Source: Streptomyces sp. V3I8
GTDB lineage: Bacteria; Actinomycetota; Actinomycetes; Streptomycetales; Streptomycetaceae
Assembly (NCBI RefSeq): GCF_030817535.1
Contig: NZ_JAUSZL010000003.1
Span: forward strand, 62,001 to 126,000
Length of the DNA: 64,000 nt
Reading direction: 5' to 3'
Positions within the stretch are counted from its first letter, which is position 1. Each line of letters starts with the position of its first letter. Below are positions 29,524 to 62,898 of this stretch, piece by piece. The position numbers and the translations under genes were made by a program. A model generated the notes under the pieces. That model ran no database searches. It saw nothing but the letters and a program-made list of their open reading frames with translations, and was not told the origin of the DNA.

Positions 29524-29552
29524 TTGCAACGCACTGACCAGTGCGCTACGGT
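29524..29552 (+). promoter_or_regulatory. Palindromic promoter-operator P1
   Basis: TTGCAA (29524-29529), 17-bp spacer CGCACTGACCAGTGCGC, then TACGGT (29547-29552). The only copy outside the 47-63 kb cluster. It drives the gene at 29586. Confidence 0.85.
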
Positions 29553-29585
29553 GGGGGCTGCCCGCTACCGCCAAGGAGGCGCACC

Positions 29586-30050
29586 ATGAACGCTCCTGAC
29601 CTTTCCGACGTCACCATGACCCCGACCATGGAAGCTCTGCGTACCGTCGGGGTGCCATCGGTGCAGCTCAAGGCCGCCGCCGAAATCCTCAACGACTTCA
29701 CCACCGACGCGGGAGAAGCCGCCTGGGCCGAGGGCCACCAGATGGGCCACATGCTCAAGGCCTCCGGCCGCCGCTGGAGCGACCGCGCCGTCTTCGGAGC
29801 CCGCCTCGGCCGCCGGGGCATCGACACCAAGATCGACTGGAGGGTGCGCACCGGCGCCCCCATCGTCGAGCGCAAGGTCCCCGAGTACCTCACGGACGCC
29901 GACCTGACCAGGATCGCCGAGCTGGCCGCCGAGCTGACCGAACTCCTGGCCCCCATCGCCGAAAAGCGCGAGGAGCAGTACCCGGCCTACCACCGGGGCA
30001 TCCAGGCCGCCCTGAAGAAGGCCCGCGTCACCCTCGCAGAAGCGAGCTGA
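29586..30050 (+). CDS. Hypothetical protein under promoter P1, 154 aa
   Basis: Mostly helical; ends with a long charged helix (LTRIAELAAELTELLAPIAE). A CAAGGAGG ribosome-binding site precedes the ATG, and the P1 palindromic promoter is 34 bp upstream. It shares its control element with the unknown-function cluster 18 kb away, so it may belong to the same regulon. No family recognised. Confidence 0.7.
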   Translation: MNAPDLSDVTMTPTMEALRTVGVPSVQLKAAAEILNDFTTDAGEAAWAEGHQMGHMLKASGRRWSDRAVFGARLGRRGIDTKIDWRVRTGAPIVERKVPEYLTDADLTRIAELAAELTELLAPIAEKREEQYPAYHRGIQAALKKARVTLAEAS

Positions 30051-30064
30051 CCCAGCACACACCA

Positions 30065-30109
30065 ACGCCCCCGCAGAGATCCATTGGACCGGACATCTCG
30101 CGAGGGCGT
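30065..30109 (+). terminator. Possible terminator hairpin
   Basis: ACGCCCCCGC and GCGAGGGCGT pair with one mismatch about 25 bases apart in the 119-bp gap before the DUF2637-like gene. Modest support; nothing else clear in this gap. Confidence 0.35.
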
Positions 30110-30169
30110 CGATCGAGCCATGCCTACTCCCACCGAAAGCCCGCCAAGGCGCACGAGAGAGCCGAAACA

Positions 30170-31147
30170 GTGACCCTCACCAAGCGTACCCGCAACGACC
30201 CCCCGAAGTCCGCCATCCGCCCCTGGCGGGACCGCCTCGCCCACGCCGACCTCGCCGAGATCTTCGACGACGGCCTCATCTACCTCCTGGCCGCAGGCGG
30301 ATTCTGGCTCGGATTCTCCACCCTCTACGACCTCGCCCTGCAGGTCGACTACAGCGCCCCCCAGGCCGCCGGAGCCGCCGCCCTCGCCGACGTCGCCATC
30401 CTCGCCTACTCCCGCAAGGCCCTGCGCGAGATCCGCGCCGGACGCTCCGCATGGGGCCTGCGCCTGATCGTCGCCCTCTTCTCCATCGCGACCTTCGCCC
30501 TCCAGCTGCGCGCCGCCTGGCCCGACCCCACCAGCCTCGCCTTCCACTGCATGCCCCCGGCCGTGTGGATCATCGGCCACGAGGCCATGCTGCGCGGCAA
30601 GATCCGCGACGCCCGCAAGGCCCTGCGCGAACAACAGATCGCCGCAGGCCTGCGCCCCGCCCCCCTGCCCACCATCCGCATCTCCCACTGGTTCCTCTCC
30701 CCCCTGCCCACCTTCCGCGTGTGGCGCCGCATGAAGCTGTGGGAACTGCCCCAGCACGTCGTCGTCCGCCAGCTCGTCGAGGACCGCAAGGCCAAGGGCA
30801 ACAAGGCCATCCCCGCCGCCTGGCAGGGCATCCTCCTCACCCCCGTCCCCCTTTCCTCCGACGACGAGCCGCTGGAGCTCGAAGACGGCCCCGTCGCCAT
30901 CGATCCCCCCAGCGAGGACACCGACATCGACATGTGGCGCCGCTTCCTCCGCGCCCTGCCCGACGCCCCGCCGGAGGGCCGCTCCAAGGAAACGGCCCTC
31001 GCCTACATCGAGTGCGTCGAACGGCTCGCCGGAGAGTTCGGCTTCGAGGTCAGGGGCACGCTCCTCGCCCACCTCCTCAGCGTCGACCCCAGCCGGATCT
31101 CCCGCATCCGAAACCAGGGCAAGGAACTGGCCACCACCGGCAGTTGA
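30170..31147 (+). CDS. DUF2637-type membrane protein with C-terminal HTH
   Basis: 325 residues. Four transmembrane helices in the first ~130 residues (FDDGLIYLLAAGGFWLGFST, then three more), the usual layout of DUF2637 proteins found on Streptomyces plasmids and integrative elements. The C-terminal end has an HTH-like stretch (LLAHLLSVDPSRISRIRNQG). On plasmids these proteins accompany transfer and regulation genes. This supports a phage-plasmid lifestyle or exchange with plasmids. GTG start. A strong two-way terminator follows. Confidence 0.7.
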   Translation: MTLTKRTRNDPPKSAIRPWRDRLAHADLAEIFDDGLIYLLAAGGFWLGFSTLYDLALQVDYSAPQAAGAAALADVAILAYSRKALREIRAGRSAWGLRLIVALFSIATFALQLRAAWPDPTSLAFHCMPPAVWIIGHEAMLRGKIRDARKALREQQIAAGLRPAPLPTIRISHWFLSPLPTFRVWRRMKLWELPQHVVVRQLVEDRKAKGNKAIPAAWQGILLTPVPLSSDDEPLELEDGPVAIDPPSEDTDIDMWRRFLRALPDAPPEGRSKETALAYIECVERLAGEFGFEVRGTLLAHLLSVDPSRISRIRNQGKELATTGS

Positions 31148-31164
31148 TCCGATAAGCTCCCCCT

Positions 31165-31203
31165 GCAGGGCCCGAAGATGCGTGACGGCATCACGGGCCC
31201 TGC
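31165..31203. terminator. Bidirectional terminator between convergent genes
   Basis: GCAGGGCCCG (31165-31174) and CGGGCCCTGC (31194-31203), with an inner GATGC/GCATC pair, form a nearly continuous 15-bp stem between the plus gene ending at 31147 and the minus gene ending at 31210. Confidence 0.85.
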
Positions 31204-32569: not shown

Positions 32570-33199
32570 TCAGTCCTGCGTGGGCAGACGGGTGCAGGGG
32601 ATCGTCCACACGTCCTCGGACTTCGGCTGCCACCCCTGCAGGGTCATGGCGTCGAGCTTGCGCGCGAGGTCCGGATACAGGCCGCCGTACGCGGCGGCCC
32701 GGTTGGGCATGTACCCCAGCTCGACCAGCCGGATGCCCAGGGTGAAGCCGGGCCAGTTGCCCCGCTCGACATCGCGGTCGTTCCACAGCACCTTGTCGAT
32801 GTCGGTGCCCTCCACCGTCATGTGCCAGTCCCGCTCGGCGTCGATCGTGACCTTCGCGGTCAGGAACTCCACCTCGTCGTCGTGCACCTGGCGAGTCCAG
32901 GTGTTGCGCTGGTAGGAGATCTCCTTCCAGCCGTGGTGCTCGCCCTTGGCCTCGTCCTCCTGCGTGGGGGTGTAGCCCCGCTCCATGAGCCGGTGACCGG
33001 CCTCCTGGGGCTTGAACTCGTCCCAGTACAGGGTCACCCGCACCAGATCTCGATTGTGGTCGTCCGAGACGACCCGCAGCGTGTACGGGCCGCCCGTCGC
33101 GCCCTTGGGGCCCGAGCAGATGGCGAGCAGAGAGCTGGTCGGGGCGTCTGCCGGATCCGGCTCACGGGGTTCGTCGGCGGTCAGTGCAGGGGCGGTCAT
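32570..33199 (-). CDS. Hypothetical protein, 209 aa
   Basis: Ends just after the convergent membrane protein gene. The middle is beta-rich (GGPYTLRVVSDDHNRDLVRV) and the C-terminal part helical. The ATG overlaps the stop of the recombinase-like gene upstream (33196). No family recognised. Confidence 0.65.
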   Translation of the reverse strand: MTAPALTADEPREPDPADAPTSSLLAICSGPKGATGGPYTLRVVSDDHNRDLVRVTLYWDEFKPQEAGHRLMERGYTPTQEDEAKGEHHGWKEISYQRNTWTRQVHDDEVEFLTAKVTIDAERDWHMTVEGTDIDKVLWNDRDVERGNWPGFTLGIRLVELGYMPNRAAAYGGLYPDLARKLDAMTLQGWQPKSEDVWTIPCTRLPTQD

Positions 33200-34029
33200 G
33201 CTTCCTCCAGGGGCTCGAAGGGCGAGGGGGAGTGCGCGACGATGTCCGGCGTGATCCGCACCTGCAGCTCCGGCGCGTCCGGGTCGGGGCACTGGCGGGC
33301 CAGCGCCACGGTCGCCCGCAGGATCGCGGCCGGGGTGACGTTGGAGTCCAGCGGGTTGCCTCGGTAGGTGGTCAGCAGCGGCCCCGACTTCTCGTGAGAG
33401 AGCGGGGGGCGCCAGATGCGGGCGGGCAGGTAGGTGCGGACGGCTTGGCGGACTTCGTCGGGCACAGCGTAGCGCCGCGTGCCCCCGCCTTTCTGCCAGA
33501 TGTCGCAGGTGAGCCGGTGCTGCTCGAAGTACAGGTCCGCCAGCTGCAGTTCGGTGATCTGACGCGAGCGCAGCGAGGCGAGCATCAGGTACATCACCAG
33601 CCGGTCGCGCGCGGCCGTGGCCCCCTCGTGCCGGTCGGCACCCCAGCGGATGAGGTGCATCTGCCCTTCGGTGAGCCGGGGCAGGCCGGGTTCGTCCTGG
33701 GGACGGCCGCGCAGCTGGGGGACGGCCGGGTTGGCTCGGGCGTGGCCGGTGTGCATGGCGTAGGCGTAGAACGCCGAGAGCGCGGAGACGCGCCGGGCCC
33801 GCGCGCGCACGGCGCCGCGCCGGGAGTCGAGCCAGGTCTTGACGTGGGAGGGGGTGGCGCTCAGGGCGTCCAGGTGCACGGTGTCCATGAAGGCCAGCCA
33901 GTCGAGGACGTCGTCTCGGTAGCGGCGGGGGCTGGTGCCCTGCAGGAGGCGGCCCTTGCTCCCGCGCTGCAGCTCGTGCGGGGTCTCGTCCTCGTCGATC
34001 CAGCTGTCCAGCACCGCGCGCGCGTCCAT
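33196..34029 (-). CDS. Degenerate tyrosine recombinase-like protein
   Basis: 277 residues. The N-terminal SAM-like core-binding domain (residues ~35-100) and the start of the catalytic domain are recognisable, including Arg154 in MLASLRSRQITELQL and the KGGGTRRYAVP beta-hairpin. The C-terminal HxxR box and catalytic tyrosine are not seen; the chain ends VRITPDIVAHSPSPFEPLEEA-like residues. It may be inactive in strand cleavage and serve as a DNA-binding or directionality factor. The complete recombinase lies at 39134-40162. Confidence 0.65.
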   Translation of the reverse strand: MDARAVLDSWIDEDETPHELQRGSKGRLLQGTSPRRYRDDVLDWLAFMDTVHLDALSATPSHVKTWLDSRRGAVRARARRVSALSAFYAYAMHTGHARANPAVPQLRGRPQDEPGLPRLTEGQMHLIRWGADRHEGATAARDRLVMYLMLASLRSRQITELQLADLYFEQHRLTCDIWQKGGGTRRYAVPDEVRQAVRTYLPARIWRPPLSHEKSGPLLTTYRGNPLDSNVTPAAILRATVALARQCPDPDAPELQVRITPDIVAHSPSPFEPLEEA

Positions 34030-34058
34030 GGCGCGTCATTGTGGCATCCGGCGCCGGG

Positions 34059-35180
34059 CTACTGTTCGGGGCGGCCCTCTGCGGTGAAGGGCCGGTTCGC
34101 GTCGAACAGCTCCTGCTTGATCTTTTTGCGCAGGGCGCCGAGGGTTTCGGGGGTGTTCTCGGAGCTGATGACGCCGGGCCGGTGTTCGTAGGGGGCCAGG
34201 CGCTGGAGGATGTAGGCGTGCTCGGCCGGATGCTGCAGCACGAGTGCGCTGGCCGCCTCGCGGCAGGCCTCTTCGTAGGCCACGACCGCCGGGTCTTCGT
34301 GGCGGCGTTTCTCGACGGATTCGGAGGCCCAGCGCCGCTGGTAGTCGCACTCGGTGCGCCGCTGGTGCACGGCGGCCAGGAACCGGCGGGCGTTGAAGAT
34401 GTCCCGGGCGTCGTCCTCCCGCATGGTGTGCACGTGGGAGGGCAGGGGGCCGAGGGTGAAGGGGCTGGTGGCCAGGGCCCGGGTCCAGGTCATCTCGGCC
34501 AGATGGTGGAGGGACTGGCGCCAGCGGCGCAGGAGAAGAGGGTGGCGCAGGGCCGGGTTGCGGTGGTCCTGGCGCTGGGCGTCCTGAGCGGCGGCCTGGC
34601 GCACCGCGTCATCGGAGGAGAGGAGCAGGCGGTCGACCTCCTGTGTGGCGGGGATGCTGAGCCAGCCCCGGGCGCATCCCTTCTCGATGGCGTCGAAGGC
34701 ATCGTCCGACGACGGGGGCAGAGCGGCCCGGGGGCCGGAGGTCAGCTCCAGGAAGTCGTCCTGGTGCGCCCGGACGAGAAGGCTGGCTGCGGTCCGGGCA
34801 CTGTCGTAGAAACCGTCTTCCTGGAGGGCGCGGCGGTGGGCGCGCTTGCGGTAGTCGACGGCCGTCTTGCGGGCGGCCGTGAGCTTGTTCCTGATGCGTG
34901 CCAGCCGGTCGGAGTTCGCCTGGGCGCGCTCGTCGCCGGTGTGCTCCATGATCTCCACCGCGACCTGCAGTTCTCCCTCCGCGTAGGTCAGGGCGTCGAG
35001 CCAGGCCAGATGCCATTCGCGCTTGCGCAGGAGGCGTTGGTTCGAGCTGGACGTGCGCAGGGTTGCGTCGGCGATGGCGGCTTTGACCAGGACGTCGAAG
35101 TCGCGGCGCATGAGAGAGGCGAGCAGCTCGGAGTCCATGGTGGCGACCTGGGCGACGCTGAGGGCGGCACTGGCGGGCAT
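34059..35180 (-). CDS. Large helical protein of unknown function, 373 aa
   Basis: Almost entirely helical, rich in Arg, Ala, Glu and Leu. Starts with MPASAALSVAQVATMDSELL and ends with a charged tail. It lies 30 bp upstream of the recombinase-like gene, probably one transcript. Its promoter is probably at the TTGTATAAAGTCA copy at 35232-35245. No family recognised. Confidence 0.65.
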   Translation of the reverse strand: MPASAALSVAQVATMDSELLASLMRRDFDVLVKAAIADATLRTSSSNQRLLRKREWHLAWLDALTYAEGELQVAVEIMEHTGDERAQANSDRLARIRNKLTAARKTAVDYRKRAHRRALQEDGFYDSARTAASLLVRAHQDDFLELTSGPRAALPPSSDDAFDAIEKGCARGWLSIPATQEVDRLLLSSDDAVRQAAAQDAQRQDHRNPALRHPLLLRRWRQSLHHLAEMTWTRALATSPFTLGPLPSHVHTMREDDARDIFNARRFLAAVHQRRTECDYQRRWASESVEKRRHEDPAVVAYEEACREAASALVLQHPAEHAYILQRLAPYEHRPGVISSENTPETLGALRKKIKQELFDANRPFTAEGRPEQ

Positions 35181-35231
35181 CTCGGCTCCTGAGAAGGGAT
35201 GCGGATGGGCGAGAGCAGCCTACCCACACCC

Positions 35232-35358
35232 TGACTTTATACAACCGCCCGCACCGCCACCAGGAAGCAAGGGGTGGCCGAGGTGAGAGGGACCGTGCGG
35301 GACGGCGCCGCGCCCGCGCGGGTAAGTGGGTGGTGGTCCAGGCTGTTGTATAAAGTCA
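35232..35358. promoter_or_regulatory. Divergent promoter region with inverted TTGTATAAAGTCA motifs
   Basis: GTTGTATAAAGTCA occurs at 35345-35358 on the plus strand and at 35232-35245 on the minus strand, 113 bp apart, each pointing outward. TATAAA in each copy can serve as a -10 box for the divergent genes at 35180 (minus) and 35501 (plus). No good -35 box is seen, so the conserved flanks may bind an activator or alternative sigma factor. The rest of the 320-bp gap (35181-35500) shows no gene. Confidence 0.55.
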
Positions 35359-35500
35359 ACGTAAGGGGGTACAGCCCGGAGCCCGGCGGGGCCGGAGAAG
35401 GAACTGCAGGAGGAACGTGGCGGGTGGCGGTGTGGCGGAGCCCTGATCCTGCCACGACCACCACGGCGTACGCCAGCCGCCCCGCCGCTACGCTGAGCCC

Positions 35501-35704
35501 ATGCCCGACCAGCTCCTCGCCTGCAGCGCCACCGGCTGTCAGACCACCGCTCCCCGCCCGGCCGACTGCCAGTGGGCCCCGCTCTGGGACGCGGGCTGGC
35601 GCTGGCGCAGCGACCCCGCAGAATGCCCTCTGCGCCTGGCTCCCCGAAGCACGCTCTACTCCTGCCCGGCCCACCCGCCCCGCCACTACGCTGGGCGCCC
35701 ATGA
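35501..35704 (+). CDS. Small Cys/Trp-rich protein, 67 aa
   Basis: Residues include CSATGCQTTAPRPADC and WAPLWDAGWRWRSD, a pattern seen in small Cys-containing phage proteins. Its stop overlaps the next ATG (ATGA). No strong ribosome-binding site, which lowers confidence. Confidence 0.5.
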   Translation: MPDQLLACSATGCQTTAPRPADCQWAPLWDAGWRWRSDPAECPLRLAPRSTLYSCPAHPPRHYAGRP

Positions 35705-36102
35705 GCGACTCCTCCCTCGGCGAGCTGGCCATCCGCTTCGCCAACCAGGACCAGCGCCACACCTACCTCGCGCTCGGGCGCCTGCTGACCCGGGCCGCCA
35801 GGGCCCAGCTGCCGACGCTGGCCTGGACCGTGCCGGTTCACAGCGGCACCATGCTCGTCGGCGAGGTCACCGGCGCCTGGCTCACCGACGCGGAGAAGCG
35901 GGAGATCTACGACCGGTGGCTCGCCTTCTTCCCCGACGTCAAGTGCAACGAGGAGCAGACGTACGGGCACAGCGTCGTGCGGAGCTTCGTCCCCCAGAAC
36001 GTCGACTGGCTGCGTCATCCCGGGGAGAAGGCCCCCAGCGATGCCCCCGACCTCGCCCACAGGTACCGGACCGACGTTCTGATCCGGCTGACCCTGGACT
36101 GA
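35701..36102 (+). CDS. Hypothetical protein, 133 aa
   Basis: Begins MSDSSLGELAIRFANQDQRH. Helix-rich, with a central TAWTVPVHSG-like beta stretch (read as LAWTVPVHSGTMLVGEV). Coupled to the preceding small gene. No family recognised. Confidence 0.6.
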   Translation: MSDSSLGELAIRFANQDQRHTYLALGRLLTRAARAQLPTLAWTVPVHSGTMLVGEVTGAWLTDAEKREIYDRWLAFFPDVKCNEEQTYGHSVVRSFVPQNVDWLRHPGEKAPSDAPDLAHRYRTDVLIRLTLD

Positions 36103-36245
36103 CGAAGGAGGGGCTGGAGTGGGCGAGTTGGGTGTGGCTGGTGGCTGAAAGTCCTCCTCCTGGCCAGGCGGGTCGGGAAGGGGCGGTAGCGTCCCTTCCG
36201 CTCACCCGCCACAACCGCCAACCCGCCTACAGAGAAGGGGACTTC

Positions 36246-36695
36246 ATGCCCTCAAAGTTCCAGCCCAGTCGATTCACGCCGCACCGCTTGTGTGTCTTCA
36301 CCCACGGCATGATCGCCGTCCTGTCAGTGGTGATCTTTCTTCGGACGATCAGCCAGAGCTGGGTCTTCTTCATCGTCGCCCTCGGCTGCGGAACGTTCTT
36401 CTCCGTTCTGTTCAGCCTGCTCTGGAAAGGGGAGGCCAGCGGCGCAGTCCACATGGAGACGCGGCCCGTTCTGGTCTGGGCCGCAGTAGCGGCGGACGTC
36501 ATCCTGCTCGGCGTGGTCTGCCAGCAGATCGGCGAATTCCTCCAGGAGCCGCTGACCTTCACCCAGGAGCCCCTGAGCAGCGGCCAGCTCATCTACTTCG
36601 CGGCGATGGGCAGCGCGGGCATCATCGTCTACGTCCTGCTGCACAGTCAGGCCGTACGGCGCGCCCCCGTGAAGGATGAGCCGGTCAAGGTCTGA
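36246..36695 (+). CDS. Membrane protein, 149 aa
   Basis: Four predicted transmembrane helices (about residues 18-35, 39-59, 74-92 and 113-133), short loops and a Lys-rich C-terminus. ATG preceded by GAAGGGGACTTC. An inverted repeat GGAAGGG/CCCTTCC (36176-36197) with a TAGCGT box lies ~50 bp upstream and may be its promoter region. Function unknown. Confidence 0.65.
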   Translation: MPSKFQPSRFTPHRLCVFTHGMIAVLSVVIFLRTISQSWVFFIVALGCGTFFSVLFSLLWKGEASGAVHMETRPVLVWAAVAADVILLGVVCQQIGEFLQEPLTFTQEPLSSGQLIYFAAMGSAGIIVYVLLHSQAVRRAPVKDEPVKV

Positions 36696-36702
36696 ACAGC
36701 GC

Positions 36703-36733
36703 GGGAGCCCCGGTTGGCGGACTCGGGGCTCCC
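36703..36733 (+). terminator. Terminator after membrane protein gene
   Basis: GGGAGCCCCG (36703-36712) and CGGGGCTCCC (36724-36733), perfect 10-bp stem. Confidence 0.75.
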
Positions 36734-36880
36734 TGTGCCCCGTCCGCTCAACCGTGGGGCGGGAGCGGACGAGGCGGGGGCCCCGAGCGGGGGGAGCCGG
36801 GGCCCCTGAAGATCGGCTGCTCACTTTGCGCCCCCTCACACCTGATTCACCCTTTCGGGTGAATCCTGGGGCAGCAGAAG

Positions 36881-36922
36881 ACCCCCGTCTGCATGTCACT
36901 GGGAGGACATGCAGACGGGGGT
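36881..36922. terminator. Long bidirectional terminator
   Basis: ACCCCCGTCTGCATGTC (36881-36897) pairs perfectly with GACATGCAGACGGGGGT (36906-36922), a 17-bp stem between convergent genes. A smaller hairpin GATTCACCC/GGGTGAATC (36844-36865) precedes it. The rest of 36734-36932 shows nothing else. Confidence 0.88.
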
Positions 36923-36932
36923 CCGTCGGGGG

Positions 36933-37196
36933 TCAGGCGCCTGTCGGATTGACTTTGCGTGCCTGCTCCAGGTTCCAGTCCTCGGCGTCGTGCTGCATGC
37001 GGATCTGCTCGCTGGCCCGCTCGGTCGCAGGACTCCAGGGGCGGGGAGGGATCTCGTACTGCTCGTCCCACCTGCAGCCGTTCAGGAGCATGTTCCTCTG
37101 CCTGCGCAGGTCGGCGTCGGTGAAAGCCCGCAGGGAACGGGCGGGGGGCTCGGGTTGCGGACGGCGGACGTAAGGGCGCTGCTGTTGAAGGGCCAT
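36933..37196 (-). CDS. Hypothetical basic protein, 87 aa
   Basis: Starts MALQQQRPYVRRPQPEPPAR, with CTGGAGCG upstream on the minus strand. A basic Pro-rich N-terminus is followed by an aromatic-rich helical part (CRWDEQYEIPPRPWSP). Small nucleic-acid-binding protein is possible but unproven. Confidence 0.55.
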   Translation of the reverse strand: MALQQQRPYVRRPQPEPPARSLRAFTDADLRRQRNMLLNGCRWDEQYEIPPRPWSPATERASEQIRMQHDAEDWNLEQARKVNPTGA

Positions 37197-37251
37197 CGCT
37201 CCAGTGTGGCCCTCCTTCCCTGTGTGCGTCCGGGGTTCGGCGAGAAGGGGT

Positions 37252-37395
37252 TCAGGAGGGGCCGTTGCACGCGGGGCAGTGGAGGTCTCCGATCCAGCCG
37301 GTGCCGCCACAGCTCTCGCAGTTCGGGTCGGTCTTCGCGGGGGTGCAGGTGTGCGGTACGGCCGGGAGAGGGGTGGTGGCCGGGGGTGTCTCCAT
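37252..37395 (-). CDS. Small DnaJ-type zinc-finger protein, 47 aa
   Basis: Contains NCESCGGTGWIGDLHCPACNG, the CxxCxGxG...CxxC pattern of the DnaJ cysteine-rich domain in minimal form. GGAGG lies eight bases before the ATG on the minus strand. Such mini zinc fingers are common in actinophages. Confidence 0.6.
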   Translation of the reverse strand: METPPATTPLPAVPHTCTPAKTDPNCESCGGTGWIGDLHCPACNGPS

Positions 37396-37552
37396 GGTTG
37401 TCCTCCAGGACGTGACGTTTAGAGTAGTTGTTCGACTACCCACAGTTCGAAGCTAATGACATTTTCCCAACTGTGCAAGTTCTCTTCCGCAGTTGGGGCT
37501 GCTGTCGGCCATGATGCGGGAGGGGGCAAGGGGTGGAGAGAGGATCCCGCCC

Positions 37553-37795
37553 ATGCCGAGAGCCAAGAAGCCCGCCATCACCGATTTTCGCACCCCTGTG
37601 TGGCCCGAGCGGGCCTGCCGCGACACGGTGTCCGGCGAGTTCGCCAACTACAGCTGCGACGTCGTCGAGAGCCACCTGGGCCCGCACGCCTCCCACTCGG
37701 TCCCCGAGTCGGTCCGCCAGCGCCTGCTGTGGGAGAACCGCAACCCGGACAAGCGCGAGCCCACCGCCGCCGCCGACCCCTTCATCAGCGCGTGA
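37553..37795 (+). CDS. Hypothetical protein, 80 aa
   Basis: ATG preceded by GAGAGGAT. Product MPRAKKPAITDFRTPVWPER... has two cysteines and a His-rich centre. The stop overlaps the next GTG. No family recognised. Confidence 0.6.
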   Translation: MPRAKKPAITDFRTPVWPERACRDTVSGEFANYSCDVVESHLGPHASHSVPESVRQRLLWENRNPDKREPTAAADPFISA

Positions 37796-37995
37796 GTGCC
37801 CGCCCGCCGGGCTCCTTCCCCGCGCCGCCCGCCACCAGCCCGGCCGCAGCCCTCCACGATCAGGCTGTCGGCGCCCTGCAGAAGCTGCACAACCACCTCG
37901 CCACCACCCGGCCCCGCACACTGGCCGAGGCCGCCGACGGCGAGAGCGCCGTCGAGGTCGCCATCCGGCTCCTGGGTCGACTTCCGGCCGAATAA
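37792..37995 (+). CDS. Hypothetical protein, 67 aa
   Basis: GTG overlaps the preceding stop. A Pro/Ala N-terminal tail and a helical core (LHDQAVGALQKLHNHLATT). No family recognised. Confidence 0.55.
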   Translation: MSARPPGSFPAPPATSPAAALHDQAVGALQKLHNHLATTRPRTLAEAADGESAVEVAIRLLGRLPAE

Positions 37996-38149
37996 TGACA
38001 GGTCGTCAATTGCGGGAAACTGTCACCTGTTTGGCCGCAGTCGTGCATACTGATCACACCTCGGCCCTTCCGGCCCTGGCCCGCCTGACCCCCCGAAGAC
38101 GTGGCAGGTGCGGTGTCGTCGTCTGGGCCGCCGCATCCGCCGCGCACGT

Positions 38150-38188
38150 GTGAGGCCCCCGAGACTTGTTACCCCCCGGGGGCCTCAC
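38150..38188. terminator. Terminator between convergent genes
   Basis: GTGAGGCCCCCG (38150-38161) pairs with CCGGGGGCCTCAC (38176-38188). It separates the plus gene ending at 37995 from the minus gene ending at 38204. The segment 37996-38149 contains a TGACAG/CTGTCA inverted repeat but no convincing gene. Confidence 0.8.
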
Positions 38189-38203
38189 GCACGTCCGGGC
38201 CCG

Positions 38204-38677
38204 CTACTCGCCGGACCCCTCGCGCCGCATGCTCTCCATCTCCTCGGCCAGCGCCTGGTACAGCGGCCCCATCACCGGCTGCACGGGCTGCCCGGTGCGC
38301 TCCTGCTCCCTCCACGCCCGCTCGTAGCAGGCCAGCTCCTCGCGCATCAGCAGCCGCCACGCCGCCAGCGCGACCCTCGCGAAGGCCCACCGCTTGACCC
38401 CGTGACGGGCCTGGAAGTACCCCAGATGCACGCCCAGAGGCCCCGGCACCCGGACAGTCTTCGGCGTCTCCGCCAGCGGAGGAGCGCCCACCGGCCGCAT
38501 CATGCCGTCCGGGGTGACCTGGAAGTTGATCTCCGCGAGAGGCTGCGCCGCCATCGCGCCGGGGTCCACCACAGCCGCAGGAGGCTCGGGGGCGGCCTTC
38601 AGCGCCAGCTGCTCCTGGCGCTCGCGCTCCTGGGCCTTCAGGCGCAACTTCTCCCGGCGTGCAGCACTCGCGGCCAT
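38204..38677 (-). CDS. Hypothetical helical protein, 157 aa
   Basis: A basic N-terminal helix (AARREKLRLKAQERERQEQL), a middle strand region and a helical C-terminus. Promoter candidate: TAGGAT -10 (minus strand, 38710-38715) with the GACGTCATGACGTC palindrome (38722-38735) over its -35 region, so transcription is probably controlled through that site. No family recognised. Confidence 0.6.
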   Translation of the reverse strand: MAASAARREKLRLKAQERERQEQLALKAAPEPPAAVVDPGAMAAQPLAEINFQVTPDGMMRPVGAPPLAETPKTVRVPGPLGVHLGYFQARHGVKRWAFARVALAAWRLLMREELACYERAWREQERTGQPVQPVMGPLYQALAEEMESMRREGSGE

Positions 38678-38721
38678 GGCGTTCTCCGTAGATCGTGGCG
38701 GAGCCCCATCCTATCTTCGGT

Positions 38722-38735
38722 GACGTCATGACGTC
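38722..38735. repeat. GACGTCATGACGTC palindrome, copy 3
   Basis: Exact 14-bp palindrome, 45 bp upstream of the minus-strand gene start at 38677, overlapping the likely -35 position of a TAGGAT-type promoter. Confidence 0.9.
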
Positions 38736-38758
38736 CCTGCACCCCCTGCCGCCGGGCA

Positions 38759-38796
38759 TGCAGAAGGCCCCTCCCGCGAGGAAGGGGCCTTCTGCA
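38759..38796 (+). terminator. Strong hairpin terminator
   Basis: TGCAGAAGGCCCCT (38759-38772) with AGGGGCCTTCTGCA (38783-38796), perfect 14-bp stem. It could end minus-strand transcription from the CRISPR-like element and insulate the 38677 promoter. Confidence 0.8.
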
Positions 38797-38867
38797 GTTC
38801 CGCATCGAGTCAGAGGCCCGTCCTACCGTCCCTGGCCGCGACGGACAAACCAAGGACGAACCCCGTT

Positions 38868-38945
38868 CAGCATCCCCGCAAGTGCGGGGACAACTCTGCC
38901 ATCAAACAGAGAAGTGGAACATCCCCGCAGATGCGGGGACAAGCA
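38868..38945 (-). CRISPR. Two-unit CRISPR-like repeat element (type I-E-like)
   Basis: Two hairpin repeats share CATCCCCGCA-nn-TGCGGGGACAA (38871-38893 and 38920-38942). Read on the minus strand, each has the core GTCCCCGC-nnnn-GCGGGGATG, matching the stem-loop plan of type I-E repeats; unit 2 extends to TTCC like actinobacterial I-E repeats. The spacer between 29-nt units is ~20 bp, not the usual 32, and no cas genes are present. It may be a phage mini-array or solitary-repeat RNA. A third, weak unit (CCTCCGC-GTC-GGCGG) is near 38964. The rest of 38797-39133 shows no gene; it could also hold the attachment site. Confidence 0.45.
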
Positions 38946-40331: not shown

Positions 40332-40409
40332 GCCTTCAGCTCCTTGGGTTCGTGTCGATGGCGGGCTCGTCGCCGCACAGGCGCAGCTTGATGGTCACGT
40401 GCCCTCCGC

Positions 40410-42933: not shown

Positions 42934-42964
42934 TCAGGTACCTTAAACCGATCGAGGGGCCATC

Positions 42965-44138: not shown

Positions 44139-44157
44139 CATGCTGTCCGGCGGGCAA

Positions 44158-45229: not shown

Positions 45230-45445
45230 TCAGGCGGTCAGGCCGCCCGTGAGGTCGTCACTGCTCTTGATGCTGCCGAGGAACGCGCCCCAGTTGCTGC
45301 CGGAGAACGTGAGGACCGGGCCCGCGCCGTGCTGCTTGGTGTCGCGGACGCCGACCGCCTCGGCCGTCGTGTCGATACCCTGCTCGACGCAGTTCTCACC
45401 GTCGCCGCTGTAGGTCGACTTGTGCCAGTTGGTGTAGGTGGTCAA
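45230..45445 (-). CDS. DUF397 small protein
   Basis: 71 residues with the DUF397 pattern: WHKSTYSGDGENCVE, VGVRDTKQHGAGPVLTFS and a final WGAFLGSIK. DUF397 proteins are the small partners of Xre-DUF5753 regulators in Streptomyces (whiJ/abaA-like loci). The gene overlaps the Xre-DUF5753 gene just upstream, the normal arrangement. Confidence 0.88.
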   Translation of the reverse strand: MTTYTNWHKSTYSGDGENCVEQGIDTTAEAVGVRDTKQHGAGPVLTFSGSNWGAFLGSIKSSDDLTGGLTA

Positions 45446-46509
45446 GGTGCTTCTTCCTCCACTGTGCGGGCGCTCACGCCGTTCGCGAGCGCATCATGCA
45501 AGTATCCGAGAGTCTTCTCTGGTGACCAAGCCCGGTCTTGCAAAAGTCTGAACCGGACTTGGTACAGCTCGATTTGTGCTGGGTCATCGATGAATGTTCC
45601 ATCACCGTGGCCCTCCCGAAACGCCATCATGTCGGAACCGAACGAGAACAGGTCGAACGATCCTCCCATGCCGTTGTGGGCGCCCACCTCGAAGGGGAGG
45701 ACCTGAATCCTGACCTCGTCGGTCAGGGCCAGGTTCACCAGGTGGACCAGCTGATTCTCCATCACCCGGGGGCCGCCCACTATCCGTCTCAGGGCCCCCT
45801 CGTCCATCACGGCGTGGATACGCGGCCTCCGGGGACGGGCGAGGAGCCCTTTGCGCTGCTCGCGGTGCCTGAGCGCGTCGCTCAAAGGGTAGTTGGGATC
45901 CACCTCGGCGGCCGGTTTGATGGCGCATTGAGAGTACTCGGTAGTCTGCAGCAGGCCGGGAACGACCTGCGCCGACCACGTGCGGATATCGTCGGCCATC
46001 GCTTCCGCTTCGGCGAAGTCCTGATGGCTGGGCCCCACGATCTTCCCCGATTCCGCCCAGGCGCTGCCCTCGCTGCTCTCCACCGAAAGCAGCTTCCAGC
46101 GGGCGACCTCCCGCTCCCACTCCTCTTTCTGCTGCCGGACCCACTCGTCGGCCTGCGCCGCAGCCTGTTCCTCGATGGTCTGCCGGACCGTCTGGATGGC
46201 TGTGCGCTGGTCGTCCGAGGCGTGCTGCTCGTCAAGGCCGCCGAGGCCGCCGTCGAACCGGGCCACTTTCTGCCGGATGAACTCCTGCCGTCTGGCGGTG
46301 AAGTCCGGTTCATAGAGCTTGATATACCCCCGCAGGGCGTTGCCCCGGGGCGGCGTGTGGCCGCTCTCGTTGCGGTAGACGGTCGACGCCGCCCTTCCCA
46401 GCTTCGCCGCCACATCGCTCGCCGACGTGAACCCTGCCGCCTCGCGCGCCCGCTTGAGCTTGCGGCCCAACAGGCTGCTCCTGATGGTGGGCCTGGTTCC
46501 GTACGCCAT
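45442..46509 (-). CDS. Xre HTH - DUF5753 regulator (WhiJ-like)
   Basis: 355 residues. N-terminal HTH (LGRKLKRAREAAGFTSASDV, then STVYRNESGHTPP), a long helical insert (residues ~85-170, Glu/Arg-rich), and a C-terminal DUF5753 region beginning near DDIRTWSAQVVPGLLQTTEY and containing the LARPRRPRIHAVMDEGALRR stretch. The insert makes it longer than the usual ~280-residue family member. It probably represses its own operon and neighbours until bound by the DUF397 partner. ATG 46509 follows GAGGGAGCGTC. Confidence 0.85.
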   Translation of the reverse strand: MAYGTRPTIRSSLLGRKLKRAREAAGFTSASDVAAKLGRAASTVYRNESGHTPPRGNALRGYIKLYEPDFTARRQEFIRQKVARFDGGLGGLDEQHASDDQRTAIQTVRQTIEEQAAAQADEWVRQQKEEWEREVARWKLLSVESSEGSAWAESGKIVGPSHQDFAEAEAMADDIRTWSAQVVPGLLQTTEYSQCAIKPAAEVDPNYPLSDALRHREQRKGLLARPRRPRIHAVMDEGALRRIVGGPRVMENQLVHLVNLALTDEVRIQVLPFEVGAHNGMGGSFDLFSFGSDMMAFREGHGDGTFIDDPAQIELYQVRFRLLQDRAWSPEKTLGYLHDALANGVSARTVEEEAP

Positions 46510-47244: not shown

Positions 47245-47274
47245 TTGTCAGCGCACTGATGAGTGCGCTACGGT
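47245..47274 (+). promoter_or_regulatory. Palindromic promoter-operator P2
   Basis: TTGTCA (47245-47250), 18-bp GCGCACTGATGAGTGCGC, TACGGT (47269-47274). Drives 47423-48801. The ~145-nt leader (47280-47422) has no gene. Confidence 0.85.
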
Positions 47275-48502: not shown

Positions 48503-48801
48503 ACGATGTCCGGGTGAAGTACGAGAGGGGCCGCCGCCTCCTCGGCGGCCCCTCCTCGCCCATCCACTTCGCCTACGTCCAGCCCGGCCTGTACGAGAGC
48601 GACAACCTCGGCGACCCGGAGGGCGAGCCCCTGCGCTACCACCTGCGCCGCCTGGGCCGCAACCACTTCGAGGGCATCGAGGAGACCGGCTGGTACGTCA
48701 CCGGCGGCGACCTGGTGCGCGAGTGGTGCGCCGTCGGCGTCGAGGACGCCGTCGAGGTCGCGAACCGGCACCTCATCCCCCTGCACTTGCCAACGCACTG
48801 A
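48499..48801 (+). CDS. Hypothetical protein, 100 aa
   Basis: GTG overlaps the previous stop. MNDVRVKYERGRRLLGGPSS start, aromatic-rich middle (IHFAYVQPGLYESDN) and a helical end. The P3 promoter begins inside its last codons. No family recognised. Confidence 0.65.
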   Translation: MNDVRVKYERGRRLLGGPSSPIHFAYVQPGLYESDNLGDPEGEPLRYHLRRLGRNHFEGIEETGWYVTGGDLVREWCAVGVEDAVEVANRHLIPLHLPTH

Positions 48802-48816
48802 TCAGTGCGCTAGGTT
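48787..48816 (+). promoter_or_regulatory. Palindromic promoter-operator P3
   Basis: TTGCCA (48787-48792), spacer ACGCACTGATCAGTGCGC, TAGGTT (48811-48816). Outer TTGCCAA...TTGGCAA arms extend the dyad to about 35 bp. Drives 48858-50610. Confidence 0.88.
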
Positions 48817-50680: not shown

Positions 50681-50709
50681 TTGCAACGCACTGATCAGTG
50701 CGCTAGGTT
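50681..50709 (+). promoter_or_regulatory. Palindromic promoter-operator P4
   Basis: TTGCAA (50681-50686), 17-bp CGCACTGATCAGTGCGC, TAGGTT (50704-50709). Drives the gene at 50738. Confidence 0.88.
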
Positions 50710-51608: not shown

Positions 51609-51638
51609 TAGACAGCGCACTGACTAGTGCGCTAGGTT
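51609..51638 (+). promoter_or_regulatory. Palindromic promoter-operator P5
   Basis: TAGACA (51609-51614), 18-bp GCGCACTGACTAGTGCGC, TAGGTT (51633-51638). Drives the gene at 51667. Confidence 0.88.
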
Positions 51639-52897: not shown

Positions 52898-52927
52898 TAG
52901 ACAGCGCACTGATCAGTGCGCTAGGTT
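52898..52927 (+). promoter_or_regulatory. Palindromic promoter-operator P6
   Basis: TAGACA (52898-52903), perfect 18-bp palindrome GCGCACTGATCAGTGCGC, TAGGTT (52922-52927). Drives the gene at 52957. Confidence 0.9.
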
Positions 52928-54762: not shown

Positions 54763-54792
54763 TTGCCAGCGCACTGATTAGTGCGCTAGGTT
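54763..54792 (+). promoter_or_regulatory. Palindromic promoter-operator P7
   Basis: TTGCCA (54763-54768), 18-bp GCGCACTGATTAGTGCGC, TAGGTT (54787-54792). GGTGCCAACC upstream and GGTTGGCACC over the -10 form an outer inverted repeat. Drives the gene at 54834. Confidence 0.88.
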
Positions 54793-55402: not shown

Positions 55403-55432
55403 TAGACAGCGCACTGATCAGTGCGCTAGGTT
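55403..55432 (+). promoter_or_regulatory. Palindromic promoter-operator P8
   Basis: TAGACA (55403-55408), perfect 18-bp GCGCACTGATCAGTGCGC, TAGGTT (55427-55432). Drives the gene at 55473. Confidence 0.9.
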
Positions 55433-59421: not shown

Positions 59422-59451
59422 TAGCCAACGCACTAACCAGTGCGCTAGGTT
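59422..59451 (+). promoter_or_regulatory. Palindromic promoter-operator P9
   Basis: TAGCCA (59422-59427), 18-bp ACGCACTAACCAGTGCGC, TAGGTT (59446-59451). The most diverged palindrome of the set. Drives the gene at 59483. Confidence 0.85.
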
Positions 59452-60886: not shown

Positions 60887-60916
60887 TAGACAGCGCACTG
60901 ACCAGTGCGCTAGGTT
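60887..60916 (+). promoter_or_regulatory. Palindromic promoter-operator P10
   Basis: TAGACA (60887-60892), 18-bp GCGCACTGACCAGTGCGC, TAGGTT (60911-60916). Drives the gene at 60958. Confidence 0.88.
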
Positions 60917-60957
60917 TGCCCCCTACCCGCCAAGTAGACCGAACCGAGGAGCACCAC

Positions 60958-62763
60958 ATGCCCGCCACCTCCCGCCTGTCGGACCCCATGATCCGCGCCC
61001 TCCTGGGGGCGCTGTGCCACAAGAACAGCGACGGCCGTTACTGCGTGTTCGCCCCGCAGCCCACCATCCGCGCCCTGATCGGGCGAGGCAAGGCCGGACG
61101 GGAAGAGTTCACCGGCCGCGAGAGCGGTGCCCTGCTCGTGCGCTACCACCTCACCGAGGAGGGTGTCACCTACCTGCGGGAGGCCCTGACGTTCGTCCTC
61201 GGCAAGCGCGGCGAGGACCGTGACGCGGTCTGGACGGAATGGTTCGCCGCCGACCGCAGCCACGTGTGGGCCCTGATCGACTTCCTGGGCCTCACCGGCG
61301 ACACGTACAAGGTCGTCACCACCACGCCCCACGAGCGCAAGGCGCTTCACGAGACCCTCAGCCGCGCGGACGCCTGGGAGCGCATGAGCGACGCCCTGCG
61401 CAACGGACAGCGCATCACCATCGACGGCCGGTCCATGACCGTGCACACCAAGCTCGGCGCCCGCTGGACGTTCACCGCCCAGGACGTTCCCACGGTCGAG
61501 GTGGACGACGTCCAGCACCGCATGTACGTCGGCGTCCTCCGCGACGACGCGAAAGACATGGGCCTCTGCGGTCCGGACAACGTCCGCGCCGCCATCGTCA
61601 ACGGCTGGACCGACGGCCACCGCGCCGAGCGCCAGGAGGACGGCACGGTGGCCGTGGGCTACTCCTGGTTCGTCCCGCAGCGCCCCGTCCCGTGGGTGGA
61701 GTCCGGAGAGATGCTCACGGACGCGGGCGGCGTCGGCGGAGACATTCAGATCGGCAACGCGGCCGAGCGCCGGTTCACTCACACCACGCTGCCCGGCCGC
61801 GTAGTCGACGTCACCGCCTGCCCGATCAAGGGCGACGGCTCCACCTCCATGCCCGCCGAGGACGCACCGATCTATCTTCAGCAGCAGGTTCACACGACCA
61901 TCTGCCGTGACGTTGAGGACCCGGGCGGCACCGAGGAATTCGCCGATATCACGTACCCCGACCTGCCCGAGGCGTACAGCGGTACCTACGCCACGGTGAC
62001 CGACGCAGAGGCCGCCGCCCGCCGACTGGTCGCCAGCACGACCCCGGAGCACATCGGATGGGACGGAGTCCCCGACTACCCCACCGAAACCTGGTGCGCC
62101 GAGCGCGCGGCCGAGCTGCTCGGCGCGGGTCGCTACTGGGTGAAGCACTTCCGCATGTTCGGCCAGGTCCCGCGCACCGAGCCGGTCAACCGCACGGCCG
62201 CGCTCGAACTGATCACGTGGGCGATGCGTCACGGCGGCTGGCAGTGCTACCGCGCAGACACGGGCGGAGTGAACCTGGAGAGCCCCACGGGTGAGTCCTC
62301 GTACTGGCTGGAGCCGCTCGCCGAGGACTGCGACACGCACGCCGGTGAGCCCGCCGACAGCTGTGAGACGTGCGCAGAGGACGCCCAGGAGGCGGCTCAA
62401 CTCGTCGACGAGGCAAGGAAGGACGCCGAGGAGGGCGGGGCCACCGCCGAGGCAGGCCGCCGCGTCCTCTCTGACGCCGGGGTCGAGGAGGACTCTGCCA
62501 TGGTGGCCCGCCGCGCCACCGAGGAGGCCGGACCCGCCCCCGTGGACGAGGAGGTCACCCCCGCCCCGCACACGGTCTATCTGATCGCGCTCGTCGAGCC
62601 GATCACCGGCTACAGCATGGTGGGCGAACGGGTGCGCGCCGAATACGTGCGCGAGGACATCCGTACCTCCGCCCGCTCCGGGGTCCATGCCGTCCGTGTC
62701 GGCACCGAGGGCATGATTCGTGTCGGGTCGCTGCTGTTCATCCCCCAGGGGCTCGCCGCCTAG
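60958..62763 (+). CDS. Hypothetical protein under P10, 601 aa
   Basis: Large single-gene unit. The N-terminal part looks like a winged helix (RESGALLVRYHLTEEGVTYL). The middle is strand-rich; a CDTHAGEPADSCETCAED site near residue 460 may bind zinc; the C-terminal ~60 residues form a small alpha/beta domain. Acidic overall. GAGGAGC before the ATG. No family recognised. Confidence 0.7.
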   Translation: MPATSRLSDPMIRALLGALCHKNSDGRYCVFAPQPTIRALIGRGKAGREEFTGRESGALLVRYHLTEEGVTYLREALTFVLGKRGEDRDAVWTEWFAADRSHVWALIDFLGLTGDTYKVVTTTPHERKALHETLSRADAWERMSDALRNGQRITIDGRSMTVHTKLGARWTFTAQDVPTVEVDDVQHRMYVGVLRDDAKDMGLCGPDNVRAAIVNGWTDGHRAERQEDGTVAVGYSWFVPQRPVPWVESGEMLTDAGGVGGDIQIGNAAERRFTHTTLPGRVVDVTACPIKGDGSTSMPAEDAPIYLQQQVHTTICRDVEDPGGTEEFADITYPDLPEAYSGTYATVTDAEAAARRLVASTTPEHIGWDGVPDYPTETWCAERAAELLGAGRYWVKHFRMFGQVPRTEPVNRTAALELITWAMRHGGWQCYRADTGGVNLESPTGESSYWLEPLAEDCDTHAGEPADSCETCAEDAQEAAQLVDEARKDAEEGGATAEAGRRVLSDAGVEEDSAMVARRATEEAGPAPVDEEVTPAPHTVYLIALVEPITGYSMVGERVRAEYVREDIRTSARSGVHAVRVGTEGMIRVGSLLFIPQGLAA

Positions 62764-62774
62764 GGCTGCACCAT

Positions 62775-62788
62775 GACGTCATGACGTC
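62775..62788. repeat. GACGTCATGACGTC palindrome, copy 4
   Basis: Exact 14-bp palindrome just after the stop of the P10 gene and before its terminator; the flanks make ATGACGTCATGACGTCG. Confidence 0.9.
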
Positions 62789-62791
62789 GCT

Positions 62792-62823
62792 ACGGGGGCG
62801 GGGAGGAGACTCTCCGCCCCCGT
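62792..62823 (+). terminator. Terminator of P10 unit
   Basis: ACGGGGGCGG (62792-62801) with CCGCCCCCGT (62814-62823), perfect 10-bp stem, 45 bp before P11. Confidence 0.85.
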
Positions 62824-62868
62824 CGGCGTGCCCAAACACGCTGGTCAGAAGAGATCCGCCCCCGCCCC

Positions 62869-62898
62869 TTCACAGCGCACTGATTAGTGCGCTAGGGT
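62869..62898 (+). promoter_or_regulatory. Palindromic promoter-operator P11
   Basis: TTCACA (62869-62874), 18-bp GCGCACTGATTAGTGCGC, TAGGGT (62893-62898). Drives the gene at 62940. Confidence 0.85.

Follow-up and report, generated by a model that had tools for sequence, protein, structure and literature searches.

An array of promoter-like sequences with palindromic spacers, probably operators, in a Streptomyces phage-plasmid

Why does one palindrome recur between the -35 and -10 boxes of promoter-like sequences in this stretch of Streptomyces DNA (the window, 64,000 nucleotides)? The first-pass annotation had reported eleven such sites, locating each by the first base of its -35 box. A pattern search of the window (up to 3 mismatches) found exactly these 11 matches. 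With the same pattern, 100 shuffles of the window gave a mean of 0.05 matches and a maximum of 1. In window coordinates, the sites are:

29524..29552, + strand: TTGCAA-N17-TACGGT, upstream of g094 (palindrome at 29529-29546)
47245..47274, + strand: TTGTCA-N18-TACGGT, upstream of g120 (palindrome at 47251-47268; within a long predicted hairpin)
48787..48816, + strand: TTGCCA-N18-TAGGTT, upstream of g122 (overlaps the end of g121)
50681..50709, + strand: TTGCAA-N17-TAGGTT, upstream of g125
51609..51638, + strand: TAGACA-N18-TAGGTT, upstream of g126
52898..52927, + strand: TAGACA-N18-TAGGTT, upstream of g127 (perfect palindrome)
54763..54792, + strand: TTGCCA-N18-TAGGTT, upstream of g128
55403..55432, + strand: TAGACA-N18-TAGGTT, upstream of g129 (perfect palindrome)
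59422..59451, + strand: TAGCCA-N18-TAGGTT, upstream of g134
60887..60916, + strand: TAGACA-N18-TAGGTT, upstream of g135
62869..62898, + strand: TTCACA-N18-TAGGGT, upstream of g136

As annotated, the spacer is 18 bp or, at two sites (29524 and 50681), 17 bp. Other details need amending. The -10 box was described as TAGGTT or TACGGT, which is correct everywhere but at 62869 (TAGGGT). The lists of -35 boxes and palindrome centers were incomplete: TAGCCA (59422) and TTCACA (62869) also occur as -35 boxes, and GATGAG (at 47251) is another center. Variation was said to be confined to the center, but the first base of the palindrome is also variable (A or G).

The window is part of C3, a contig of 157,951 bp, which has 19 sites in total; the other 8 lie at 126584-141371 of the contig. 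(A match to the position weight matrix, or PWM, at C3 155135, with 19.5 bits, lacks the arms and was excluded before counting.) All 19 sites have the same orientation, and 18 of them are intergenic in a contig that is 89% coding. The end of the -10 box is 28-148 nt from the start codon. In the rest of the genome, one-mismatch matches occur at two places only. As for the reported CCCGCC-type leader, CCCGCC or CGCCAAG is found within 50 nt upstream of the gene for 18 of the 19 site-led genes of C3, as compared to 21 of 60 other + strand genes with an upstream gap of over 40 nt. The led proteins were described as mostly large, which is true in the window (8 of 11 have over 250 amino acids) but not beyond it (5 of 8 have under 200).

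Do the sites look like promoters? Every C3 site has a -10 box of the form TANNNT, and at 16 of the 19, a -35 box with at least 4 of 6 matches to TTGACA lies 17 or 18 bp from it on the + strand. (The other three have poor -35 boxes.) The same arrangement is found at 0 of 19 sites on the - strand and at 0.16% of random positions. PMC8079986 gives TAnnnT and (n)TGAC, with spacers of 15-19 nt, for mapped promoters of S. lividans. The C3 sites fit this housekeeping (sigma-70/HrdB-type) consensus, except that three fall short, and the palindrome occupies the whole of the 17- or 18-bp spacer. In an alignment of the C3 sites, conservation drops upstream of the -35 box and a few bases past the -10 box. 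Within the palindrome, 11 of the 12 bases of the inner arms are invariant and the twelfth differs at one site, while the center varies. This suggests sequence-specific recognition and not mere pairing.

The element had been called a phage. It does contain phage genes, but phage-plasmid is a better name. C3 is largely collinear with the phage-plasmid pRLB1-9.1 (131 of 187 genes have matches), whose record is marked circular and which has counterparts of the capsid, baseplate, and ParA proteins. (PMC7205883 mentions pRLB1-9.1 beside linear plasmids and as lacking Tap/Tpg.) The capsid proteins of Mycobacterium phage Myrna, Gordonia phage Skog, and Rhodococcus phage E3 have 59-60% identity to that of the element. 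C3 forms a contig of its own, and a check for end repeats found none, so a circular form is putative. Among 10 array-led proteins, three matched PHROGs families, all of unknown function, and none matched in PADLOC.

We then compared related elements. The promoter frame and the orientation are the same, but the palindrome differs by lineage: GCGCACT-N4-AGTGCGC, GGCAAC-N4-GTTGCC, ATGCAYATCGATRTGCAT, CTCCAAGGATCCTTGKAG, and others. Each relative or stretch with an array has 8-21 sites. In PWM scans, we found 19 sites in RLB, 11 in A0642, and 9 in MH60 (whole elements), and 13, 8, and 21 sites, in one orientation, in 35-40 kb stretches of G394, G704, and G705. Because each PWM was trained on the very sequence that it was used to scan, the scores lack independence. 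In G706, we kept 15 of 18 matches, dropping two that are out of register (6131 and 24767) and one inside a gene call (24738). A match at A0642 24992 (20.4 bits) lacked the arms and was excluded before counting. Matches on the - strand are palindromes read backwards, except for one in G706 (28112, 19.3 bits). The operators form groups: C3 with A0642 (which have the arms in common), RLB with G394-5, and MH60 with G704. The promoters of g094 align across elements as TTGCAA/TTGCAG-N17-TANNGT-GGGGG, with differing spacers. A palindrome that varies among relatives while its flanks do not was what the first-pass annotation had named as evidence against its reading. Taken literally, this is what we found, yet another palindrome takes the place of the lost one. 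Dyad symmetry and position are thus conserved, and the letters are not. The change of operator would also explain why an exact search of viral contigs with the 18-letter core found nothing.

A motif-free test, with five shuffles (in two-base blocks) per sequence, gave + and - strand counts of 20/2 for C3, 9/0 for MH60, 7/0 for both G704 and G705, 5/0 for G706, 6/1 for RLB, and 4/1 for G394. For A0642, the result (5/0, against 1-3 in shuffles) is only slightly above chance. Skog, E3, and the scanned part of Myrna, which are isolated relatives, lack such arrays, as do G709 and G711 (36 kb each); the motif-free test gave 0-1 per strand in all of these. In the K. viridis element, a seeded PWM found nothing and the motif-free test (3/0, shuffles 0-5) was not above chance, so the case for an array rests on six sites with -35 and -10 boxes that we picked from about 60 + strand matches (up to 3 mismatches). 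Three of those six have matched arms.

The centers are also lineage-specific, as are the -10 boxes in three of four elements (C3, A0642, and RLB): TAAGGT occurs at 11 of 11 sites in A0642 and TAGAGT at 18 of 19 in RLB. MH60 has 9 kinds of -10 box among its 9 sites. This lineage specificity is more than repression alone needs.

We propose that the sites are probably operator-promoters of a dimeric, element-encoded repressor that would occlude RNA polymerase and be re-specified in each lineage. The annotation's view that these are promoters of a single regulon of a phage element, with a dyad site that would block the polymerase, is supported. RNA polymerase with the host's housekeeping sigma factor would start at the 19 near-identical promoters, which lie in a variable, probably early, region of the 158-kb Streptomyces-type phage-plasmid. 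The dimer would occupy the palindrome that fills the spacer and silence all of the promoters at once, in the prophage and/or following an early burst of infection. As each lineage has its own operator on the common frame, repressor specificity would differ from lineage to lineage, and so would the immunity group, provided that the repressor is active in the prophage. Although the sites, their frame, single orientation, and restriction to the element, and the exchange of palindromes are observed, we infer protein binding, repression, timing, and immunity from sequence. Neither G705 nor G706, which both have arrays, has a match to ParA, the g109 integrase, g067, g046, g008, or g118, which implies that the link with lysogeny is not general. 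Given these two metagenomic relatives, which lack the lysogeny genes searched for, shut-off after an early burst is as possible as lysogenic repression.

Could the palindrome instead be a nucleic-acid hairpin that ends read-through (or a cruciform), overlapping the promoter for economy of space? Flanks beyond the promoter pair better within a site than when swapped between sites (mean -21.3 vs. -16.8 kcal/mol; 0 of 20,000 permutations were as good), and stems of about 17-26 pairs are predicted at sites 109251, 129491, and 141042 of the contig. A hairpin, too, predicts that the palindrome will differ among relatives, and RLB site 113613 has a change in both arms that keeps the pairing. But at 10 of the 19 C3 sites, the site's own flank is equaled or surpassed in pairing by at least 5 of the 18 swapped ones, and at 9 of the 19 RLB sites, pairing is broken by a change in one five-base arm. 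A hairpin needs pairing and not one sequence, yet the inner arms are the same across C3 but for one base, and a hairpin would not account for the precise match between palindrome and spacer. We consider a hairpin quite unlikely. Slightly less so, but still unlikely, is an activator or phage sigma factor: a phage protein on the palindrome would recruit or replace the host's sigma factor, so that the array is switched on, not off. This could account for the many non-consensus -35 boxes (TAGACA, TTCACA, and the three poor ones) and for the element-specific TAAGGT and TAGAGT, and a conserved gene, g080, has a weak match to sigma-70 region 4. However, elements whose palindromes differ have g080 proteins of 81-83% identity, 5 of the 19 RLB sites have a perfect TTGACA, and the -10 boxes of MH60 are all different. 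Also, a dimer in an 18-bp spacer sits where RNA polymerase binds, except in the case of MerR-type activators, which have spacers of 19-20 bp.

Dispersed operators of the KorB kind are known. Another reading is partition or incompatibility, in which g035, as a ParB/KorB-like protein beside ParA (g036), would bind dispersed sites and repress as a side effect. The element does have a ParA gene, and the neighboring g035 diverges quickly (26-30% identity in three relatives). But g035 has no Pfam match, there is no site near g035/g036 in C3, the arrays of G705 and G706 come without a ParA match, and partition does not need sites locked to promoters in one orientation. This seems very unlikely. Least probable of all is that promoter cassettes spread recently by recombination with their genes, with little regulation. 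The center and, in C3, A0642, and RLB, the -10 box are element-specific like the arms, which suggests concerted change. However, conservation ends upstream of the -35 box and soon after the -10 box, several lineages whose sequences differ still have the dyad symmetry, and no cassette in C3 has the opposite orientation.

If a repressor encoded by the element binds these sites, which gene encodes it? The main candidates (window coordinates) are:

29586..30050, + strand: g094, 154 amino acids, with an array promoter upstream in seven elements and a helix-turn-helix (HTH)-like core in the predicted structure
45442..46509, - strand: g118, XRE-HTH plus DUF5753, WhiJ-like, a rival regulator
11651..12250, + strand: g067, a protein whose two XRE-like HTH stretches are weak Pfam matches, a rival regulator

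Our first candidate, tentatively, is g094, for which the modeled HTH-like core is weak support; its fold might be a MarR-like winged helix. By scan, an array promoter precedes it in C3, A0642, RLB, MH60, G394, and G704, and by eye also in contig 3300046518_000291, where only one half-site is kept. We found no match to g094 in the K. viridis element, and its helices differ between C3 and A0642 although these have the operator arms in common. We take g118, which has an HATPase neighbor and is near the site at 47245, to be WhiJ-like. Its autoregulation was rejected: in C3, every stretch of the divergent intergenic region upstream differs from the palindrome at 4 or more positions. In RLB, this region has a near-copy, GCAACGGGAGTTAC, with one arm mismatch, which we did not count because the matching stretch of C3 reads as a GGGAGT..ACTCCC dyad (by eye). 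An ImmR/ImmA module is an XRE repressor beside an HExxH peptidase of the M78 type; g008-g007 might be such a pair, with weak, below-cutoff matches to HTH_3 (E = 0.0025) and Peptidase_M78 (E = 0.0062) and with the HExxH pattern in all 5 elements aligned. We counted the columns that set the three operator groups apart: 5 in g046, 8 in g118, 12 in g008 (five sequences only), and 3 in g067 (two of them in the first HTH; the numbers are small). No candidate stands out by covariation, and no recognition helix clearly tracks the groups. Across 89 genes in four elements, columns that set C3 and A0642 together against two others number 642 (against 510 and 567); as such columns are generally a little more frequent, a small surplus of them in g008 or g094 says little. 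We rejected g095 (DUF2637 with an HTH-like C-terminus, by eye), whose helix differs between RLB and G394 despite their common operator, and also a host regulator, as the chromosome has just the two one-mismatch places.

The elements make up a natural series in which one promoter frame carries at least four clear operator specificities. With it, one can directly test how a repressor co-evolves with about 20 operators at once, a long-standing puzzle of phage immunity groups. Gene by gene, the motif also marks out a regulon whose proteins mostly lack known domains, which is a practical guide to host-takeover or anti-defense genes of Streptomyces phages, and promoters with orthogonal operators would be useful for Streptomyces genetics. 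A broader proposal, which we think possible but doubtful, is that 155-kb actinobacterial phages have a switch common to the whole family. In it, 8-21 early promoters on one frame, with exchangeable spacer-filling operators re-specified together in each element, would be under a repressor of no described family (g094 or an equivalent) that evolves fast, regulates itself, and is specific to its element; the switch would govern a host-takeover or counter-defense island of unknown proteins.

How does the array compare to known systems? Among the titles and abstract openings listed (10-20 of up to 104 papers), which mostly do not cover subscription journals, such arrays in phage-plasmids are not described; any novelty is putative. 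The genome of phiC31 (NC_001978.3) has 15 exact copies of TACTCACGTGAGTA, which we take to be the conserved inverted repeats (CIRs) of its repressor. As in C3, many copies of one palindrome are dispersed in a Streptomyces phage genome. But phiC31 has a 41-kb genome with an integrase gene, the C3 palindrome differs from TACTCACGTGAGTA, and the phiC31 copies are not spacer-filling: a -35 box with at least 4 matches is suitably placed for a TANNNT at the edge of the palindrome at 0 of 15 copies on the + strand and 1 of 15 on the - strand, as compared to 16 of 19 in C3. WhiJ-type XRE regulators resemble g118 (XRE-DUF5753 with an HATPase neighbor, near a site), but according to PMC10294661, WhiJ9 binds direct repeats (CGXXCTCAAC) and not an 18-bp palindrome. 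Cluster A mycobacteriophages such as L5 and Bxb1 have up to 30 dispersed sites, mostly in one orientation; each heteroimmune group has a different consensus, which shifts along with the repressor (PMC6550527). C3 is similar in its dispersed sites of one orientation and in its group-specific consensus. However, those stoperators are 13 bp, asymmetric, mostly away from promoters, and block elongation (same paper), whereas the C3 sites are 18-bp palindromes inside promoter-like sequences. In archaeal viruses with Aca8, mostly small early genes of unknown function have a common promoter core and a virus-specific regulatory part, some with inverted repeats, and the regulatory sequence also stands in front of the aca8 genes (PMC11065993). 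The archaeal genes are anti-defense genes, while such a role for the C3 array genes is putative. The archaeal promoters are of the TATA/BRE type, and the resemblance to C3 is not expected to reflect homology.

The window (C3 62001-126000) comes from a 9.3-Mb genome in 4 contigs, one of which is C3 (157,951 bases). A pattern search for the operator-like palindrome (GCGCACTGATCAGTGCGC, with up to 3 mismatches) gave 11 matches in the window, versus 0.05 in shuffles, so the eleven palindrome-spacer sites reported in the first-pass annotation are indeed present. All 11 have a -35-like hexamer at left and TAGGTT, TAGGGT, or TACGGT at right. (TAGGGT had been overlooked; the other two had been named.) C3 as a whole has 19 sites (C3 91529-141371), and the promoter reads on the + strand at every one. 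Genome-wide, GCGCACT-N4-AGTGCGC with at most one mismatch occurs at these 19 sites and at two places on C2, with one mismatch each.

Of the 12 inner-arm bases (CGCACT..AGTGCG), 11 are the same at every one of the sites in C3. Variation had been said to be confined to the palindrome's center, and the center does vary, but the twelfth arm base also deviates at one site. In the -10 box, the T, the A, and the final T are invariant. At 16 of the 19 sites, a -35 box that matches TTGACA at four or more positions lies 17 or 18 bp from TANNNT on the + strand (none on the - strand); the remaining three have 3, 2, and 2 matches. A 5'-end sequencing study of S. lividans promoters gives TAnnnT, (n)TGACn, and a mean spacer of 16.5-17.4 nt (PMC8079986). 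By our own gene calls (C3 is 89% coding), 18/19 sites are intergenic. The next start codon is 28-49 nt from the end of the -10 box, except at two sites (137 and 148 nt). The CCCGCC-type leader noted earlier is also common: CCCGCC or CGCCAAG is found within 50 nt upstream of 18/19 led genes, as compared to 21 of 60 other + strand genes with a gap above 40 nt.

pRLB1-9.1 from Streptomyces sp. RLB1-9 (NZ_CP041653.1; 154,158 bp) is largely collinear with C3 (131 of 187 C3 genes match). Its record is marked circular and lists an HK97-fold capsid protein, a baseplate protein, ParA, a DnaB-type helicase, and DNA polymerase III alpha. (PMC7205883 mentions it beside linear plasmids and as being without Tap/Tpg.) The capsid proteins of Mycobacterium phage Myrna, Gordonia phage Skog, and Rhodococcus phage E3 share 59-60% identity with the one encoded here. 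The element family is rare, with 2/394 and 1/392 genomes, each count including the own genome. In IMG/VR, a related capsid gene occurs at 341 loci, of which the best 80 were kept. One contig from a "Gammaproteobacteria" metagenome bin (CAIOZF010000052.1) encodes a capsid protein that is 80% identical to this actinobacterial family, which is probably a binning error.

Conservation of the palindrome in relatives had been suggested as a test. The promoter frame is kept, but the letters are replaced by another palindrome: the C3 palindrome is absent from pRLB1-9.1 (nothing within 1 mismatch of the 12 arm bases), where the C3-type frame carries GGCAAC-N4-GTTGCC instead.

Proposed operators and PWM site counts in C3 and its relatives
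C3 (whole element): GCGCACTGATCAGTGCGC; 19 sites
A0642 (whole element): GCGCACTCGCGAGTGCGC, arms as in C3; 11 sites
pRLB1-9.1 (whole element) and G394 (39.6 kb): GGCAAC..GTTGCC; 19 and 13 sites
MH60 (whole element) and G704 (34.9 kb): ATGCAYATCGATRTGCAT; 9 and 8 sites
G706 (36 kb): CTCCAAGGATCCTTGKAG; 15 sites (of 18 hits)
G705 (36 kb): TACTCCTGCAATTGCAGGAGTA, half-sites mixed; 21 sites

In G705 (L133, L134), the half-sites CTCCTGCAAT and CTACAAGGAT are joined in several orders, as if a heterodimer or two related proteins were in use. In the putative Kitasatospora viridis element (G209), the PWM scan with the seed used gave no site. We picked six promoter-placed CCTAGATATCTAGG-like sites there: two perfect, one CCCAGATATCTGGG, and three with one degenerate half. 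This element (L028-L030) also has 12 copies of a second promoter-like repeat, TTGCGYATACTCAT..CACTAGATT (one on the - strand), in which an outer dyad, CTAGTG..CACTAG, surrounds TTGCGYATACTCAT. Perhaps two operator systems lie side by side.

The promoters of g094, a candidate regulator gene, align among C3, pRLB1-9.1, G394, G704, MH60, and contig 3300046518_000291 (TTGCAA or TTGCAG, N17, TANNGT, and GGGGG), with differing spacer sequences. In RLB-type elements, one half of the g094 operator is degenerate; a simple palindrome scan misses it, but the PWM finds it in pRLB1-9.1 and G394.

Because arms, centers, and, in three of four elements, -10 boxes are all element-specific, the operators of an element seem to have been altered together and in their entirety. 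The dominant -10 is TAGGTT in C3 (12/19), TAAGGT in A0642 (11/11), and TAGAGT in pRLB1-9.1 (18/19). The cause would seem to be either recombination between copies or a protein that also reads the -10 box. MH60, in which no two of the nine sites share a -10 box, shows that an element-specific -10 is not required.

We also searched for the promoter frame with any self-complementary spacer, regardless of motif, with five block shuffles per sequence as the control (0-5 hits). Plus/minus counts were 20/2 in C3, 6/1 in pRLB1-9.1, 9/0 in MH60, 4/1 in G394, 7/0 in G704, 7/0 in G705, 5/0 in G706, 5/0 in A0642 (which barely exceeds shuffles), and 3/0 in K. viridis (which does not). Counts were 0/1 in Skog, 1/1 in E3, 0/1 in Myrna (74.6 of 164.6 kb scanned), and 0/0 in 36 kb each of G709 and G711. 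In the whole records of Skog, E3, and Myrna, we found no match to the lysogeny-type genes searched for (ParA, g067, g046, g008, and g118).

What reads the palindrome? Constant arms around a varying center, as in C3, suggest that a symmetric protein recognizes a specific sequence. And since the letters differ between elements yet symmetry, orientation, and promoter frame persist, this protein probably changed alongside. A dimer occupying the spacer would exclude RNA polymerase, so we infer repression. There is something in the alternative that the palindromes form hairpins: flanking DNA pairs within individual sites, and at some sites the operator, the promoter, and perhaps the preceding unit's terminator seem fused. 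At C3 91529, 109251, 129491, and 141042 (the first two at window 29529 and 47251, the others beyond the window), site-specific complementary DNA lies outside the promoter; the predicted stems enclose the promoter and are perhaps terminators of the preceding unit. But base pairing does not explain the invariant arms, five or more swapped flanks were equal to or better than the own flank at 10/19 sites, and arm pairing is broken at 9/19 sites in pRLB1-9.1.

Besides g094, other regulator-like genes are present. g153 (L013:9524-10057; 177 amino acids), immediately ahead of the C3 136077 site, has several weak HTH matches and is a possible further candidate. A conserved trio on the - strand of C3 (L009:7513-9924) encodes a weak XRE-HTH protein, an HExxH M78-like protein, and a DUF6545 membrane protein; it resembles the ImmR/ImmA immunity module. 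Between sites 1 and 2 lies a lysogeny-like segment:

Window 32570-47219: whole segment, with an XRE-DUF5753 gene, a HATPase gene, and a 71-amino-acid neighbor
Window 33196-34029 and 39134-40048: tyrosine-recombinase-like genes
Window 43380-43889: RHH protein gene

Among 30 proteins in or beside the array, two had Pfam hits above the cut-off (GmrSD_N in g124 and Excalibur in g160); further domains are DUF2637 in g095 and DUF7239 in g154. Of ten array-led proteins, three matched PHROGs, all of unknown function, and none matched PADLOC. g124 (window 50035-50610; 191 amino acids) has the N-terminal domain of the GmrSD restriction enzyme and is too short for the entire enzyme. A DNA search matched 230 records of phages, among them 190 from Mycobacterium and 37 from Microbacterium; all 40 matches listed are at about window 51168-51411 (71-79% identical), inside array-led g125 (window 50738-51568; PHROG 2433, unknown function). 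Gene content in the array region varies strongly among elements, unlike the bulk of the structural and replication genes, which retain clear identity. Given this contrast and the unmatched proteins, the region has the look of a host-takeover or anti-defense island. PMC11065993 describes a parallel from archaeal viruses, in which virus-specific promoter sequences are used likewise.
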